A stretch of 64,000 nucleotides of DNA from Rubellicoccus peritrichatus. GTDB lineage: Bacteria > Verrucomicrobiota > Verrucomicrobiia > Opitutales > Cerasicoccaceae. The translations under genes were made by a program, and so were the position numbers. Location of the stretch: positions 2,351,001 to 2,415,000 of the forward strand of contig NZ_CP136920.1 in assembly GCF_033100135.1 (NCBI RefSeq), in the 5' to 3' direction. This document shows, one piece after another, positions 17,477 through 23,513 of this stretch; position 1 is the stretch's first letter; each line of letters begins with the position of its first letter. The notes under the pieces were generated by a model that was not told where the DNA came from, searched no databases, and worked only from the letters and a program-made list of their open reading frames with translations.

Positions 17477-18433
17477 TTATTTTGTATTAACATCACGCCA
17501 CTGCTTACACAGATCCTCTGTCGCCTTTTTCCATGATGGGTATTGGAACTCAAAACCATCCTGAAGCAGCTTCCCGGGTATCACGCGTCTGCTTTTCAAA
17601 ACTAACTCCGTTTCGGTCTTCATGAAGAAAGCACCGATTTCGAGCATCCAACTTGTTGCCGGGAGCCCAAGGCGAATTCCCCAGGCATCGCGGATGCAAC
17701 GCATGAACTCGAAATTGGGAAGAGGGTTGAGCGAGGCAAGATTCACGACATCGTTCAAATGCTCATGCTCGATTATCCAATCAATCGCCCTGATGAAATC
17801 AACTTCGTGAATCCATGATACATATTGGCGACCGTTTTCGGATTGGCCTCCCAGACCAACACGAACCAAACCAAGTAAGGTATCAAATACACCTTTGGCA
17901 TCAGGACTCATCACCATGGCAGAGCGAAGCTTGACGGTTCTTGTTCGAGGAAGCGTAAATGCATCGGTTGCCGCTTCCCATGCTTTTGCCACATCAATAC
18001 TAAAGCGCCAGGTATCCGGAGTGTCGTCATTATCGTTACCAATGATACCGTTGGCCTCATCATTGGGAGCGTCGAAGCGGTGGGCATAAATAGTCGCAGT
18101 ACTGGATTGAAGCCAGACCTTTGGCGGATTTACAGCCGCCTTGATCGTCTGTCCAATAATGCGCGTTGAATCTACCCGGGACTGCATGATCGCTTCGCGG
18201 TTTTTTGAATTGTATCGGCAGTTCACACTTCGTCCGGCGAGGTTGATCACAACATCGGCACCTTCGAATTCATTGGTCCAGGTGCCAGGCGTTTGTGCAT
18301 CCCATTGAACAACACGCCAGTCCGCCGGTTGTGGTTTGCGACTGAGAACAACAACTTCGTCACCACGCTGATGATAATGCCGCGCCAGGATTGTGCCGAC
18401 TTGCCCGCTTCCGCCAGGAAGTATGATTTTCAT
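17477..18433 (-). CDS. TIGR01777 family SDR protein (YfcH-like epimerase)
   Basis: A 318-residue protein. It starts with the NAD(P)-binding motif GGSGQVGTILARHY (G-x-x-G-x-x-G) and continues with VVINLAGRSVNCRY, where the LAG motif and basic residues typify the family. It ends with a DUF1731-like segment (VLKSRRVIPGKLLQDGFEFQYP). It is a cytoplasmic short-chain dehydrogenase/epimerase-like protein of unknown substrate. It stands alone on the minus strand between two plus-strand genes. Confidence 0.9.
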   Translation of the reverse strand: MKIILPGGSGQVGTILARHYHQRGDEVVVLSRKPQPADWRVVQWDAQTPGTWTNEFEGADVVINLAGRSVNCRYNSKNREAIMQSRVDSTRIIGQTIKAAVNPPKVWLQSSTATIYAHRFDAPNDEANGIIGNDNDDTPDTWRFSIDVAKAWEAATDAFTLPRTRTVKLRSAMVMSPDAKGVFDTLLGLVRVGLGGQSENGRQYVSWIHEVDFIRAIDWIIEHEHLNDVVNLASLNPLPNFEFMRCIRDAWGIRLGLPATSWMLEIGAFFMKTETELVLKSRRVIPGKLLQDGFEFQYPSWKKATEDLCKQWRDVNTK

Positions 18434-18640
18434 TTTATGTTTCTCCGTTGGATGTATAGGAATGATGACAGTGTAATAAATTTGAAATGGATTAATCCAC
18501 TTAGGTCAACAAAGGAACTTCATCCCTGAGTTGAAGTTCTGAATTCGATTTGTGTAAACAGCCGTCGGCGAAAAAGAATAAAAAAAACACTTGCACTGAT
18601 TTTTTCTTCGGGTTTTTGTTTGGATTCTCAACTTTAGCCA

Positions 18641-18799
18641 GGAGGGCACTAATGATTACCTTTTCGTTCCAACATTGACACACGGCTGATCCAGCCACCG
18701 GACTGAAACACGTCTGTAGAAGTCAATGTTTTGCGAGCCCTCCACCAGATAGCTTTTTCGTCAGCTATCCGTTGAGACCATTGCTGGGGAGCTTTTTTT
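18641..18799 (+). ncRNA. Structured leader or small RNA with mutually exclusive stems and a terminator
   Basis: Perfect stems are seen: GGAGGGC (18641-18647) with GCCCTCC (18737-18743), AACATTGAC (18671-18679) with GTCAATGTT (18722-18730), GGCTG-ATC-CAGCC (18684-18696), and GATAGCT with AGCTATC (18748-18769). The segment 18740-18748 can instead pair with CTGGGGAG (18784-18791), followed by seven Ts. Competing pairing of one strand with an upstream arm or a terminator arm is the layout of a riboswitch or attenuator. It lies 60 bases before the ABC exporter gene. No known riboswitch class is recognised; a free-standing small RNA is the alternative. Confidence 0.55.
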
Positions 18800-18811
18800 G
18801 TCGTTTCTTTT

Positions 18812-18831
18812 CTCCGTCACGGAGCGTTTTT
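18812..18831 (+). terminator. Second terminator-like hairpin upstream of the ABC exporter
   Basis: CTCCG-TCA-CGGAG followed by CGTTTTT makes a short intrinsic terminator 27 bases before the ABC gene start. It follows the first U-tract at 18793-18799. Confidence 0.5.
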
Positions 18832-18857
18832 AACACCTGATTTGCTTATATCTACCA

Positions 18858-21146
18858 ATGAACTCTCAGAGTTTTCAGCATAACCGTCGCCTTTTACAGC
18901 GATACACCGATCAACCCGATGTCTTACCTGATGCAATCCGACGAAAAGTCGAGAGCGCGTGGGGTGGGCAAGCGATTCAGCTCTACGCAATGGGAGACCT
19001 TGATGCGTCGCTTAAGCTTGCACAAATCTGGCTTCTGGTCGGTGCTGAACATTGCGCAGTCGTCCGCGAGACTGAAGGTGATTTAGATGTGACCAGCTTT
19101 CCGCGGTCAAAGATTAAGGACGTTCGCGAAACTGCTGGCCTCAGTTGCACACAGCTTTCACTTCGCTCTGAGACGGGTGAACCGTCACTGGCTGTGTTGC
19201 GTTACAGTCAACGGCAGCGGCAGGCTTTCTCCGCAATCATTTTTGTCCTAAAGCAACAGCTGGAGGGCAGGGTGGTTTCGCCGAAAGATGCGGATGAAGC
19301 CTATGCCGATGCCATGGCTGGTCCCATTCGCAAGGCGCGTTCGAACAAGGATAACACGAAAGCCGCTGTGGTTTGGCGCTTGCTCAGTTACCTGAAGCCT
19401 TACCGTGTGCGTTTTGGCATGGGAGTGCTTGCTGCCTTTGCCTTGACGGCGGTGGCGCTGGTCCCTCCTTTCCTGACCAAGGAGTTGCTGGATGGCTATG
19501 TCTGGCCGTTCAGTCGCGGTGAGATCACTTACGATGCCGCAATGCATGGTGCCTGGTGGCTGCTGGGAATTCTCGTTGCAATGGTTCTGGCCCGGCTTGG
19601 CTTTGTCTGGTTGCGCTTGCGTTTTCTGACAACCGTTGGTGAGGAGGTCGCACGTGATTTGCGCGATGATATTTACGACCATCTGCATAAGCTAAGTGTC
19701 AGTTACTTTTCGGAGCATCAGACAGGTAGTATCATTAGTCGTGTAAGTTCTGACACGGATCGTATCTGGGATTTTATCGCTTTTGGCATCGCCGAGTTGA
19801 TGCTTTCACTTTTGATGATCTTGGGTTTGAGCACGGTGTTGCTCCTTCTCGATTGGCAATTGGGGCTGATCCTCATTCTGCCACTTCCGGTGATCTTTTA
19901 TCTGATTTATCTGATGGGGGCCAAGCTGCATGCTGTGTTCATCCGAATCTGGCAGAAGTGGTCGAACATGACGGCGGTGCTTTCGGATACGATTCCCGGC
20001 ATGCGCGTGGTCAAGGCCTTCAATCAGGAAGATCAGGAGCGTTCGCGCTTCTTCAAACGCAACCGCGATGTAGCCGAGGAAGCAAACCTCATTCACAAAA
20101 CATGGACCACGATTTGGCCGCTGATTTTTTTCATGCTCGAAGTCATGACGTTGTTGGTATGGTTCTTCGCTTTACCTCGTTTGTTTGGTGAAGCTGGAGC
20201 TGGACAGACGATGCAGCCGGGGCTTTTCGTTTCCTTCCTGCTTTACATGGGGATGTTTATCGGGCCAATCGACCAGATCGGAATGATCACTCGGATGATT
20301 AACCGTTCGCTTAGTTCGGCTCACCGTGTGTTTGAAATTCTCGACACGGAGCCGGATGTTGTCGCGAAGGAAGAACCGATCGACCCGGGCAGAGTCGAAG
20401 GGCATATTGCTTTTGAAGATGTAACCTTTGGTTACGAACCTGTGCGTCAGATTCTCAAGGGCATTAGTTTCAACGTGAAGCCAGGGGAAATGATTGGTTT
20501 GGTTGGACCATCCGGGTCGGGCAAGACCACGATCATTAATTTGATTGCACGCTTCTATGATGTTCAAAGTGGGCGAGTACTGATTGATGGAAACGATATT
20601 TGTGACCTCGATCCTGGCGCTTATCGTTCTCAGATTGGAATGGTTTTGCAGGATCCTTATTTGTTCCATGGCAGTCTGCTGGATAATATCCGTTACGGGC
20701 ATCGCAATGCCAGCCTGGATGAAGTGGTACAAGCGGCACGCGCAGCCAACGCACATGAGTTTATCTGCAAATTACCTCAGGGATATGATACGGTTGTCGG
20801 CGAACGTGGACATACTTTGTCCGGTGGCGAGCGGCAGCGTGTCTCCATTGCGCGTGCGATCCTGCATAATCCACGAATACTAATTCTCGATGAAGCCACG
20901 AGTAGCGTCGATACAGAGACCGAGCGGAATATTCAGGATGCGATTGAGCGGCTCGTTTCCGGGCGAACCGTTATCGCAATTGCCCACCGGCTTTCAACTC
21001 TGCGTCGTGCCAACCGAATTCTGGTTGTTAAAGATGGTAAGTTGGCCGAGCAGGGAACCCATGAGGAGCTGCTTGCCTTGGAGGATGGCGTTTATCGAAA
21101 ACTCAACTCAATGCAGAAGGAACTGCACGAAATGTATGCCGTGTAA
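18858..21146 (+). CDS. ABC exporter (fused permease/ATPase) of the DUF1854-associated type
   Basis: A 762-residue half-transporter. Residues 1-150 form an extra soluble domain ahead of the membrane part. Six membrane helices lie at about 175-460. The ATPase domain (about 520-750) has Walker A GPSGSGKTT, signature LSGGERQRVS and Walker B ILILDEATSS. The N-terminal extension and the DUF1854 gene 33 bases downstream match the pair annotated in other bacteria as cyanophycin metabolism-associated. No cyanophycin synthetase gene is visible here, so the exported substrate is unknown. It is preceded by a structured leader that may regulate it. Confidence 0.9.
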   Translation: MNSQSFQHNRRLLQRYTDQPDVLPDAIRRKVESAWGGQAIQLYAMGDLDASLKLAQIWLLVGAEHCAVVRETEGDLDVTSFPRSKIKDVRETAGLSCTQLSLRSETGEPSLAVLRYSQRQRQAFSAIIFVLKQQLEGRVVSPKDADEAYADAMAGPIRKARSNKDNTKAAVVWRLLSYLKPYRVRFGMGVLAAFALTAVALVPPFLTKELLDGYVWPFSRGEITYDAAMHGAWWLLGILVAMVLARLGFVWLRLRFLTTVGEEVARDLRDDIYDHLHKLSVSYFSEHQTGSIISRVSSDTDRIWDFIAFGIAELMLSLLMILGLSTVLLLLDWQLGLILILPLPVIFYLIYLMGAKLHAVFIRIWQKWSNMTAVLSDTIPGMRVVKAFNQEDQERSRFFKRNRDVAEEANLIHKTWTTIWPLIFFMLEVMTLLVWFFALPRLFGEAGAGQTMQPGLFVSFLLYMGMFIGPIDQIGMITRMINRSLSSAHRVFEILDTEPDVVAKEEPIDPGRVEGHIAFEDVTFGYEPVRQILKGISFNVKPGEMIGLVGPSGSGKTTIINLIARFYDVQSGRVLIDGNDICDLDPGAYRSQIGMVLQDPYLFHGSLLDNIRYGHRNASLDEVVQAARAANAHEFICKLPQGYDTVVGERGHTLSGGERQRVSIARAILHNPRILILDEATSSVDTETERNIQDAIERLVSGRTVIAIAHRLSTLRRANRILVVKDGKLAEQGTHEELLALEDGVYRKLNSMQKELHEMYAV

Positions 21147-21179: not shown

Positions 21180-21644
21180 ATGGACCAAACAATAAGTTTA
21201 TACCGCGATGCCTGGGGACAACTCATGATGGAACAAGAGGGCAAGCACTCACATGTTTTTTTGAAACCCTGCTTTCCTTGGTCGGAGCCTGAGCGTCATC
21301 TTTCCTTGCGGGACAAAGAGGGGGTCGAGCTGGCAGTTGTTGAGAACTTGAATGATCTTGATGAAGAATCCCGCGAAGCCGCCAATGCCGAACTAAAACA
21401 AGCCCGATTTTGTTTTGAGATCACAGGGATTGAATCGGTGGAGCGAGATTTCGAGCTGCGTGTCTGGAAAGTCAGGACAAGTGAAGGTCCGCGGCGCTTT
21501 TTAACTCACCTCGACACCTGGCCGCTAAAGTTACCAGGCGGAGTGTTAATTCTGCGTGACCTGGCTGGAGATCTTTATCGCGTTTCTGATCCGGATAAGC
21601 TGGATAAGAAATCAGGAAAGCTATTCTGGGCTTTTCGGGATTAA
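21180..21644 (+). CDS. DUF1854 domain protein, partner of the ABC exporter
   Basis: A 154-residue cytoplasmic protein with the DUF1854 pattern: HLSLRDKEGVELAVVENL near the middle and PRRFLTHLD...GGVLILRDLAGDLYRV at the end. It is 33 bases downstream of the exporter gene on the same strand, hence the same operon. In other genomes this family sits beside cyanophycin genes; its biochemical role is not established to my knowledge. Confidence 0.88.
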   Translation: MDQTISLYRDAWGQLMMEQEGKHSHVFLKPCFPWSEPERHLSLRDKEGVELAVVENLNDLDEESREAANAELKQARFCFEITGIESVERDFELRVWKVRTSEGPRRFLTHLDTWPLKLPGGVLILRDLAGDLYRVSDPDKLDKKSGKLFWAFRD

Positions 21645-21845: not shown

Positions 21846-22544
21846 ATGAAGACGTCTGTCATAGTTCCCTGTCTGTTGGCTTTGCTTTTTCTAATGCCAG
21901 CACAATTGTCTGCTTCTGGTAAAGTACGCTGCAAAATTTACCAAGTTGGTGATATTGCCGTCTTGTTTATTCACGGAACTTTTGATGGGAGTGAGCTCGA
22001 CGATAGGGGAAAGTATAAGAAGACGTCTGAGCCTTCGATTGTTCTGAGGACGCATAATCTATATGTGTACTTAAGTAACGATGAAAGCATAACAACTCGA
22101 AAGTATACTAAAGATCTTGCTTACGACTCGAATGGTATCCCCTCAATTTCTGATAGTAGTTCGGTGACTTCTGATGCAAGCAATACGTACTTTAGTAATG
22201 CCGATATGAATTACTTTTCGATGAAAGTTCATATCAATCATGATAGTGATGTTGATCCATATGTTCATGTCCATGTAGACAATAGCTATACCAATACGGA
22301 TGATTTCGCCATGCTTTCAATAATGGATTTTAGTGATATTGTCGATAGCTTGAATTTGACTGATAGCGATCTATCATATTACTATGTTACAGAGGATTAT
22401 GGTCAGGAGCTTTACTTCGAAGTTAAAGAGGTAACGAGCGACTCAGACTACGACACGCTGATAGATGATATAGAGGATTATTTCTCGGGAGATGGTCTCG
22501 ATGCCATTGAAGGCTCATTAAGTGATGCGTATTCAGATGAATAG
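21846..22544 (+). CDS. Secreted hypothetical protein, paralogue A
   Basis: A 232-residue protein with a signal peptide (MKTSVIVPCLLALLFLMPAQLSA). The mature protein is acidic, Ser- and Asp-rich and probably all-beta. It aligns by eye with the next gene: TSEPSIVLRTHNLYVYL against STEPSLDLGPDYLEIEL, and a shared ending of the form D-x-hydrophobic-DxI-x-D-hydrophobic...SLSDAY / TILATAY. The family is not recognised. The gene lies in an AT-rich stretch (21.7-24.3 kb) unlike its flanks. Confidence 0.75.
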   Translation: MKTSVIVPCLLALLFLMPAQLSASGKVRCKIYQVGDIAVLFIHGTFDGSELDDRGKYKKTSEPSIVLRTHNLYVYLSNDESITTRKYTKDLAYDSNGIPSISDSSSVTSDASNTYFSNADMNYFSMKVHINHDSDVDPYVHVHVDNSYTNTDDFAMLSIMDFSDIVDSLNLTDSDLSYYYVTEDYGQELYFEVKEVTSDSDYDTLIDDIEDYFSGDGLDAIEGSLSDAYSDE

Positions 22545-22652
22545 ACTCGCTGATCTAATAATGCTAATTGATTTATGAAGCTGTGTATGCTGCCCATAGT
22601 TAAGAATTACAATTCAAAGATATGAACTATCCTTGATCTGGAAGGATATTAT

Positions 22653-23513
22653 ATGAAATTTCACCGATATCCCTTGTCTATTTTTCTGTTGCTCTTGTTT
22701 TTTAGTAAAGCAAGTGCTTCTTCATCGATCAATATAGAGCTGGTTGGTCTTGAAGATCACTTTTTTATCTTGGTTACTGGTAGTTTGGATATTGAAGAAC
22801 TCTTCGGCGAAAATGACTTTGATGGTATCAGGATGTCTACCGAACCAAGTTTAGACCTCGGCCCCGATTACCTGGAGATTGAGCTAAATAGTGAAAACCG
22901 TACTGATTTGATTTTCTATGCTACCGAGTTTGAGGCGGAGTTGCCTGTATTGACTTCATCAAGAGTTCTGACCTTTGATAAACACTACCACACCAAATCC
23001 TGCGATTACCTTTCTGTGGAACTTAACGGTTCGTCTGTTATGATGAAAATAGATGAGAATTACGCTGAAAACAGTGGCGAGGGTTTTGCCTTTTTTGCTT
23101 TGAGCGAAGATCACAGCTTAGACGATTTCGACTCTCCTATCAACGATGATGGAGAAAGCTATTCCTGGTCCAATACGATCAACGATGAGCAGCTCACAAT
23201 AAGCTTTTCTGTTACACGAGTAGAAAGCATGGACGACTTTTTTGCTCTGTTGGATGTGGTAAGCGATGCTTTCGAAGGAAGTGATGATCTTGGTCATATC
23301 AATACGATTTTAGCCACCGCTTATCCGGCCGCTGGTTACGCAAATTTCGGAGATGGGCATTACCATAGTTGGTGGATGCATGGTGGCAGCTACGGCCGAT
23401 TTGTTTATCTCCACGATTACCGGGATTGGGCTGTGCTTATCCAGGATGATCAGGGAAACACCGCTTATTTGTATCTCCATGGTCGAAACGCCTGGCTCTC
23501 GAATAAAAAATAA
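22653..23513 (+). CDS. Secreted hypothetical protein, paralogue B with aromatic C-terminal tail
   Basis: A 286-residue protein with a signal peptide (FHRYPLSIFLLLLFFSKASA). Its first 230 residues parallel the preceding gene, and a unique 55-residue tail is rich in Tyr, Trp, His and Gly (YHSWWMHGGSYGRFVYLH, AYLYLHGRNAW). Such aromatic C-terminal modules occur on predicted surface proteins of Opitutae, so surface attachment is possible (inference). The family is unrecognised. It is probably co-transcribed with its paralogue 108 bases upstream. Confidence 0.75.
   Translation: MKFHRYPLSIFLLLLFFSKASASSSINIELVGLEDHFFILVTGSLDIEELFGENDFDGIRMSTEPSLDLGPDYLEIELNSENRTDLIFYATEFEAELPVLTSSRVLTFDKHYHTKSCDYLSVELNGSSVMMKIDENYAENSGEGFAFFALSEDHSLDDFDSPINDDGESYSWSNTINDEQLTISFSVTRVESMDDFFALLDVVSDAFEGSDDLGHINTILATAYPAAGYANFGDGHYHSWWMHGGSYGRFVYLHDYRDWAVLIQDDQGNTAYLYLHGRNAWLSNKK

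Follow-up and report, generated by a model that had tools for sequence, protein, structure and literature searches.

The leader of the ABC exporter/DUF1854 operon in the window (the whole 64,000-nt stretch of DNA analysed) is probably a transcription attenuator controlled by an upstream open reading frame (uORF); we give this reading a probability of about 0.7. The leader most likely reports on translation rather than being a metabolite riboswitch. The computation reveals a structured leader, a uORF with its Shine-Dalgarno (SD) sequence, recurrence of this layout before orthologous exporters, and a switch in models of relatives; uORF translation, termination, what induces the leader, and which way it switches in this genome we infer. 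The features are as follows.

18591..18596, + strand: possible -35 element TTGCAC, 61 nt 5′ of the uORF start, proposed from the recurrence of TTG[AC][AC] in the leaders
18640..18646, + strand: SD sequence AGGAGGG of the uORF, overlapping strand 1 (18641-18647); anti-SD duplex, -10.8 kcal/mol
18641..18647, + strand: strand 1 of the SD-sequestering helix, GGAGGGC, paired with GCCCTCC (18737-18743) in the MFE and centroid structures
18652..18678, + strand: uORF of 8 codons, MITFSFQH and stop, from the ORF translation and from uORFs at similar positions in orthologs
18670..18679, + strand: 5′ arm of the inner stem, CAACATTGAC, over the last uORF codons and the stop (MFE)
18684..18696, + strand: hairpin GGCTG-ATC-CAGCC within the 5′ domain (MFE)
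18699..18716, + strand: hairpin CGGAC...GTCTG within the 5′ domain (MFE)
18722..18733, + strand: 3′ arm of the inner stem, GTCAATGTTTTG (MFE)
18737..18748, + strand: strand 2, GCCCTCCACCAG, which serves as both anti-SD and switch; its pairings to strands 1 and 3 are mutually exclusive
18748..18769, + strand: hairpin GATAGCT...AGCTATC, capping the structure formed by strands 2 and 3; -7.0 kcal/mol
18763..18793, + strand: alternative candidate for the terminator hairpin, compact, AGCTATCCG...TGGGGAGCT, 5′ of the T-run; -6.0 kcal/mol
18784..18799, + strand: strand 3 (CTGGGGAG) and T7 run, the putative first terminator site (T1); 2:3 hairpin, -14 to -18 kcal/mol
18812..18831, + strand: second terminator-like hairpin (T2; hairpin 18812-18824), CTCCG-TCA-CGGAG and T5, weak, 5 bp, from the sequence pattern
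18858..21146, + strand: ABC exporter gene, a half-transporter (Pfam ABC_membrane and ABC_tran)
21180..21644, + strand: DUF1854 protein gene (PF08909, 8.8e-31)

The nested stems noted in the preliminary description are real, with coordinates shifted by a few bases. For the 5′ domain (18638-18746), the folding energy is -37.8 kcal/mol, as compared with -23.2 (sd 3.4) for shuffled sequences (z -4.3; 0 of 200 shuffles). The z score of the entire leader (18635-18808) is only -2.0, indicating that the terminator half is less remarkable than the 5′ domain.

As read from the sequence, GGAGGGC is not a mere stem strand; it is the SD region of the 8-codon uORF. The SD is near-perfect and lies 5 nt ahead of the ATG at 18652. 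Its anti-SD duplex is stronger than that of any of the 33 window genes encoding 200 aa or more, the best of which reaches -7.3 kcal/mol. The 7-bp stem 18641-18647/18737-18743 therefore hides a ribosome-binding site. An SD-led short ORF stands upstream of a putative terminator, as expected of an attenuator, and the uORF is predicted to be translated. The exporter's own start has no SD (anti-SD duplex, +1.4 kcal/mol). Upstream of the 33 larger window genes, the only other strong uORF is a 6-codon ORF (SD, -8.1 kcal/mol) within 22500-22652, with its start 152 nt before the gene at 22653.

Two further features of the uORF are probably due to chance. Its frame remains open for 53 codons past the stop, to the TGA at 18838-18840 just 5′ of the exporter. 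In addition, the residues SFQH occupy the same position in the uORF (18652-18675) and in the exporter N-terminus (MNSQSFQH, 18858-18881), with different codons; the match is absent from relatives.

As proposed earlier, one strand has two partners. GGAGGGC pairs with 18737-18743, and CTCCACCAG at 18740-18748 is free to pair with CTGGGGAG at 18784-18791, which is followed by C and T7 (18793-18799). The energy of the whole leader is -48.5 kcal/mol with the SD helix and -44.1 kcal/mol with the alternative, indicating that the alternative pairing of strand 2 is energetically realistic. The second terminator hairpin described before the gene is found as well, although weak. The sequence pattern thus places two candidate intrinsic terminators, T1 and T2, between the uORF and the gene, and transcription would terminate there.

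We modelled the leader by partition function, moving a ribosome footprint along the uORF. The 1:2 helix is complete without a ribosome or with a ribosome at codons 4-8. With a ribosome at codons 0-2, it is lost and 2:3 forms at 0.46-0.69. T1 does not form when 1:2 forms, and the second hairpin forms at 0.84-0.92 in all ribosome states. On this model, we have fair confidence that the sensor would be the ribosome on the uORF. The direction of the switch can be read in two ways, as freed strand 2 could build the terminator or remove it. The 2:3 structure abuts C-T7 and resembles a terminator; if it is one, a ribosome at the uORF start would halt transcription, the reverse of the direction in the relatives described below. 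However, the compact hairpin 18763-18793 precedes the same T-run, in which case 2:3 would be an antiterminator instead. This hairpin is slightly weaker than the competing hairpin at 18748-18769.

The exporter carries an N-terminal domain of ~170 aa that matches no Pfam model, and the DUF1854 gene is likely in one operon with it. The exporter scores 648.6 bits against NCBIfam CphA_assoc_ABC (cutoff 880) and the DUF1854 protein scores 80.6 against CphA_assoc_prot (cutoff 150), so neither belongs to the named family. The pair resembles the cyanophycin-associated pair of NCBIfam but lies outside the named equivalogs and, to judge from these scores, is a separate subfamily. Literature searches found no papers on DUF1854 and nothing relevant on leader-peptide attenuation in Verrucomicrobia.

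When the leader is searched as DNA against 54 and against 273 related genomes, the latter of the same order, only the leader itself and chance matches of 15-40 nt are returned, and the comparison is made instead on orthologous exporters, located through the N-terminal domain and the DUF1854 partner. Among the matches listed, they provide 17 upstream regions from two phyla, with the window's own included and the orthologs not independent of each other. Single-family searches added none, and a phylum search around the Planctomycetota match added one, G648.

What recurs upstream of these exporters is the layout, not a conserved primary sequence: a short SD-led ORF, often a terminator, and then the exporter gene. 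The covariation counts across leaders are too few for significance, so we make no statistical claim of covariation. In 15 of the 17 regions, it is possible to place a short ORF at about this position (only 3 codons long in G011), mostly starting 180-236 nt ahead of the exporter; examples are MIKFFWHTKTRPAKRPPAAQKFSFSRWRH (G120), MKINTPHNISGIENASGCGWMYIFAMMLSLATSGPFIAA (G007), and MQKYFKHSFPPTPRDLDSIGSLVERFPAS (L016, Planctomycetota). A rule requiring both SD and position selects 11 of 17; in dinucleotide shuffles (500 sets) it selects 0.88 on average and never more than 4, the position limits having been fixed after some of the sequences were seen. A uORF together with a terminator is found in 7 of 17 regions and in 0 of 52 control genes, which are real genes with at least 280 nt free upstream from nine of the ortholog genomes and near relatives (uORF, 3/52; terminator, 5/52).

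By sequence pattern, terminators stronger than that of the window occur in G003, G005, G007, G009, G099, and G644. G648 has a terminator followed by CTTCTTTTT, which the terminator rule misses. The automatically picked terminators of G049 and G120 are doubtful as drawn, and G011, G047, and G075 have no convincing version of the layout. The two leaders of genus g24 (L088 and L078, reverse strand) are arranged unlike other clades: a 10-codon ORF (MIDRDHPKSA or MLNRDHPKSA) ~280 nt before the exporter is followed by a strong hairpin, GCGGACGG-aCCTC...GAGGcCGTCCG, with no T-run. The motif TTG[AC][AC] lies 48-66 nt 5′ of the uORF ATG in 13 of 15 leaders, a count made without a shuffle control, and we read it as a putative -35 promoter element. 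In the window leader there is no -10 match beside TTGCAC, and a promoter scan found no promoter.

The recurrence makes it unlikely that the leader is an independent small RNA, or a set of ordinary terminators with chance extra pairings before an unregulated exporter. Two terminator-like hairpins in tandem, the modest z score of the whole leader, and the lack of relatives of the window leader by sequence would fit such an arrangement, but the uORF-terminator layout is common to orthologous exporters in two phyla. In addition, the gene 5′ of the leader (17477-18433) lies on the opposite strand, so there is no upstream transcript needing termination at the leader.

Less probable still is a metabolite- or drug-binding riboswitch, in which the three-way domain 18670-18733 would be the aptamer and the SD-like strand would be incidental. 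The domain is indeed very stable, with a compact three-way junction, and the terminator pairing is mutually exclusive. However, the recurring element is the uORF with its SD, and no aptamer-like sequence or junction is conserved upstream of the exporter in any ortholog. Rfam 15 at the gathering score finds only a tRNA in the whole window, and at E up to 10 the leader gives only unrelated weak matches, bearing out the earlier statement that it matches no known riboswitch. The 'ligand-responsive attenuator' of the preliminary description therefore survives in its second word, as an attenuator-type leader with a layout that recurs before orthologous exporters, and not in its first: with strand 1 being the uORF SD, no Rfam family, and no aptamer-like conservation, the ribosome is more likely the sensor than a ligand.

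The peptide sequences of the uORFs are not conserved among relatives, whereas frame length is equal within clades. The uORF pN/pS is 0.8-1.4, near saturation, with no evident purifying selection on the peptide, so we claim no leader-peptide family. A value near 1 fits start-codon sensing, by analogy with the exchangeable uORFs of vmlR (see below), and the lack of conservation argues against a specific amino-acid sensor. Attenuation specific to one amino acid, of the type seen in trp and his leaders (the cyanophycin-associated family name would suggest arginine or aspartate), would account for a leader ORF followed by a terminator, the classic layout, and for several Arg codons in the f24 peptides, but is very improbable and was rejected in its cyanophycin-linked form, since the window uORF has no Arg or Asp codons, the g4 peptides have few or none, MITFSFQH and its relatives share no run of one amino acid's codons, and the peptides diverge freely.

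The SD is paired in relatives as well. In three genomes of family f24, its partner strand lies within the uORF, at +41/42 (GGAGACC/GGTCTCC, GGAGGCC/GGCCTCC, and GGAGGTC/GGCCTCC), and the anti-SD strand also complements GAGGCC at the terminator foot. In three genomes of genus g4, the partner of the SD AGGACC is GGGTCC, located at +94 to +97 and complementary to the terminator sequence GGGACC as well. The anti-SD strand (strand 2) of these relatives also matches the 5′ arm of the terminator. Over 12 leaders, the combined p for SD:anti-SD pairing at the same place within clades is 0.002, with relatedness not corrected.

A modelled ribosome at codon 1 lowers the terminator probability from 0.78, 0.95, and 0.99 to 0.03, 0.36, and 0.13 in G120, G007, and G009, respectively, and the terminator is lost only with the ribosome at about codons 0-3. 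These three relatives represent two architectures. Interior shuffles give a mean of 0.30 switching leaders per set and never reach three in 100 sets. The switch is seen in three of the seven modelled relatives; G005, G644, G648, and G099 do not have it.

For the uORF-controlled attenuator, we propose the following mechanism. The nascent leader would expose the strong SD and the 8-codon uORF. Strand 2 would have two possible partners, strand 1 (the SD) and strand 3, the latter beside the U-run. Ribosome occupancy of the uORF start would select the pairing, and thereby whether RNA polymerase stops ahead of the exporter. For the relatives, we predict the same logic as in vmlR: the SD helix would act as the anti-antiterminator, 2:3 as the antiterminator, and 3:4 as the terminator, with readthrough when a ribosome stays on the first codons. 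The natural signal may be a slowing or arrest of translation, such as an inhibitor exported by the transporter would cause.

In Bacillus subtilis vmlR, initiation arrest on a three-codon uORF opens the anti-antiterminator, and the uORF peptide variants MIN, MDN, MDK, and MRK are exchangeable and work equally (PMC9226507). The features shared with vmlR are a very short uORF, an SD region within a predicted anti-antiterminator stem, a hairpin capping the alternative structure, a putative terminator before the gene, a uORF peptide that seems exchangeable, and, where relatives were modelled, triggering by start-codon arrest. Unlike vmlR, which encodes an ABC-F protein, the gene in the window is an exporter; sequence and organism are unrelated, and the direction modelled in the window is not that of vmlR. 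The leader also resembles the bmrB leader of the BmrCD multidrug ABC exporter, which has a uORF, an anti-antiterminator, an antiterminator, and a terminator before an ABC exporter operon (PMC4191407). However, bmrB is a 162-bp ORF with the terminator inside, whereas the window uORF has 8 codons and ends ahead of the terminator; among the relatives whose terminator is clear, most have a uORF of 29-42 codons. The toiL uORF of Escherichia coli is likewise a short uORF that senses translation stress, including start-codon arrest (PMC12121999), but it controls translation and Rho-dependent termination, whereas the window leader has a candidate intrinsic terminator instead. The window leader is likely an independently built attenuator of the vmlR/bmrB kind, and exporters of this type are not known to carry such a leader.

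A broader proposal is tentative, and we hold it as a possibility rather than an expectation. In this order and in some Planctomycetota, the ABC exporters linked to DUF1854 may be controlled by an undescribed class of start-codon-arrest sensors. This class would have been rebuilt several times, with different RNA architectures and the same logic of a hidden uORF SD, and its polarity would be inverted in this genome, with expression when the uORF is not being initiated.

If the attenuator reading is true, the state of the ribosome would switch an ABC exporter, pointing to translation inhibitors or translation stress as what it answers. The DUF1854 system would become directly testable, and uORF attenuation of the antibiotic type would extend past the groups studied so far.
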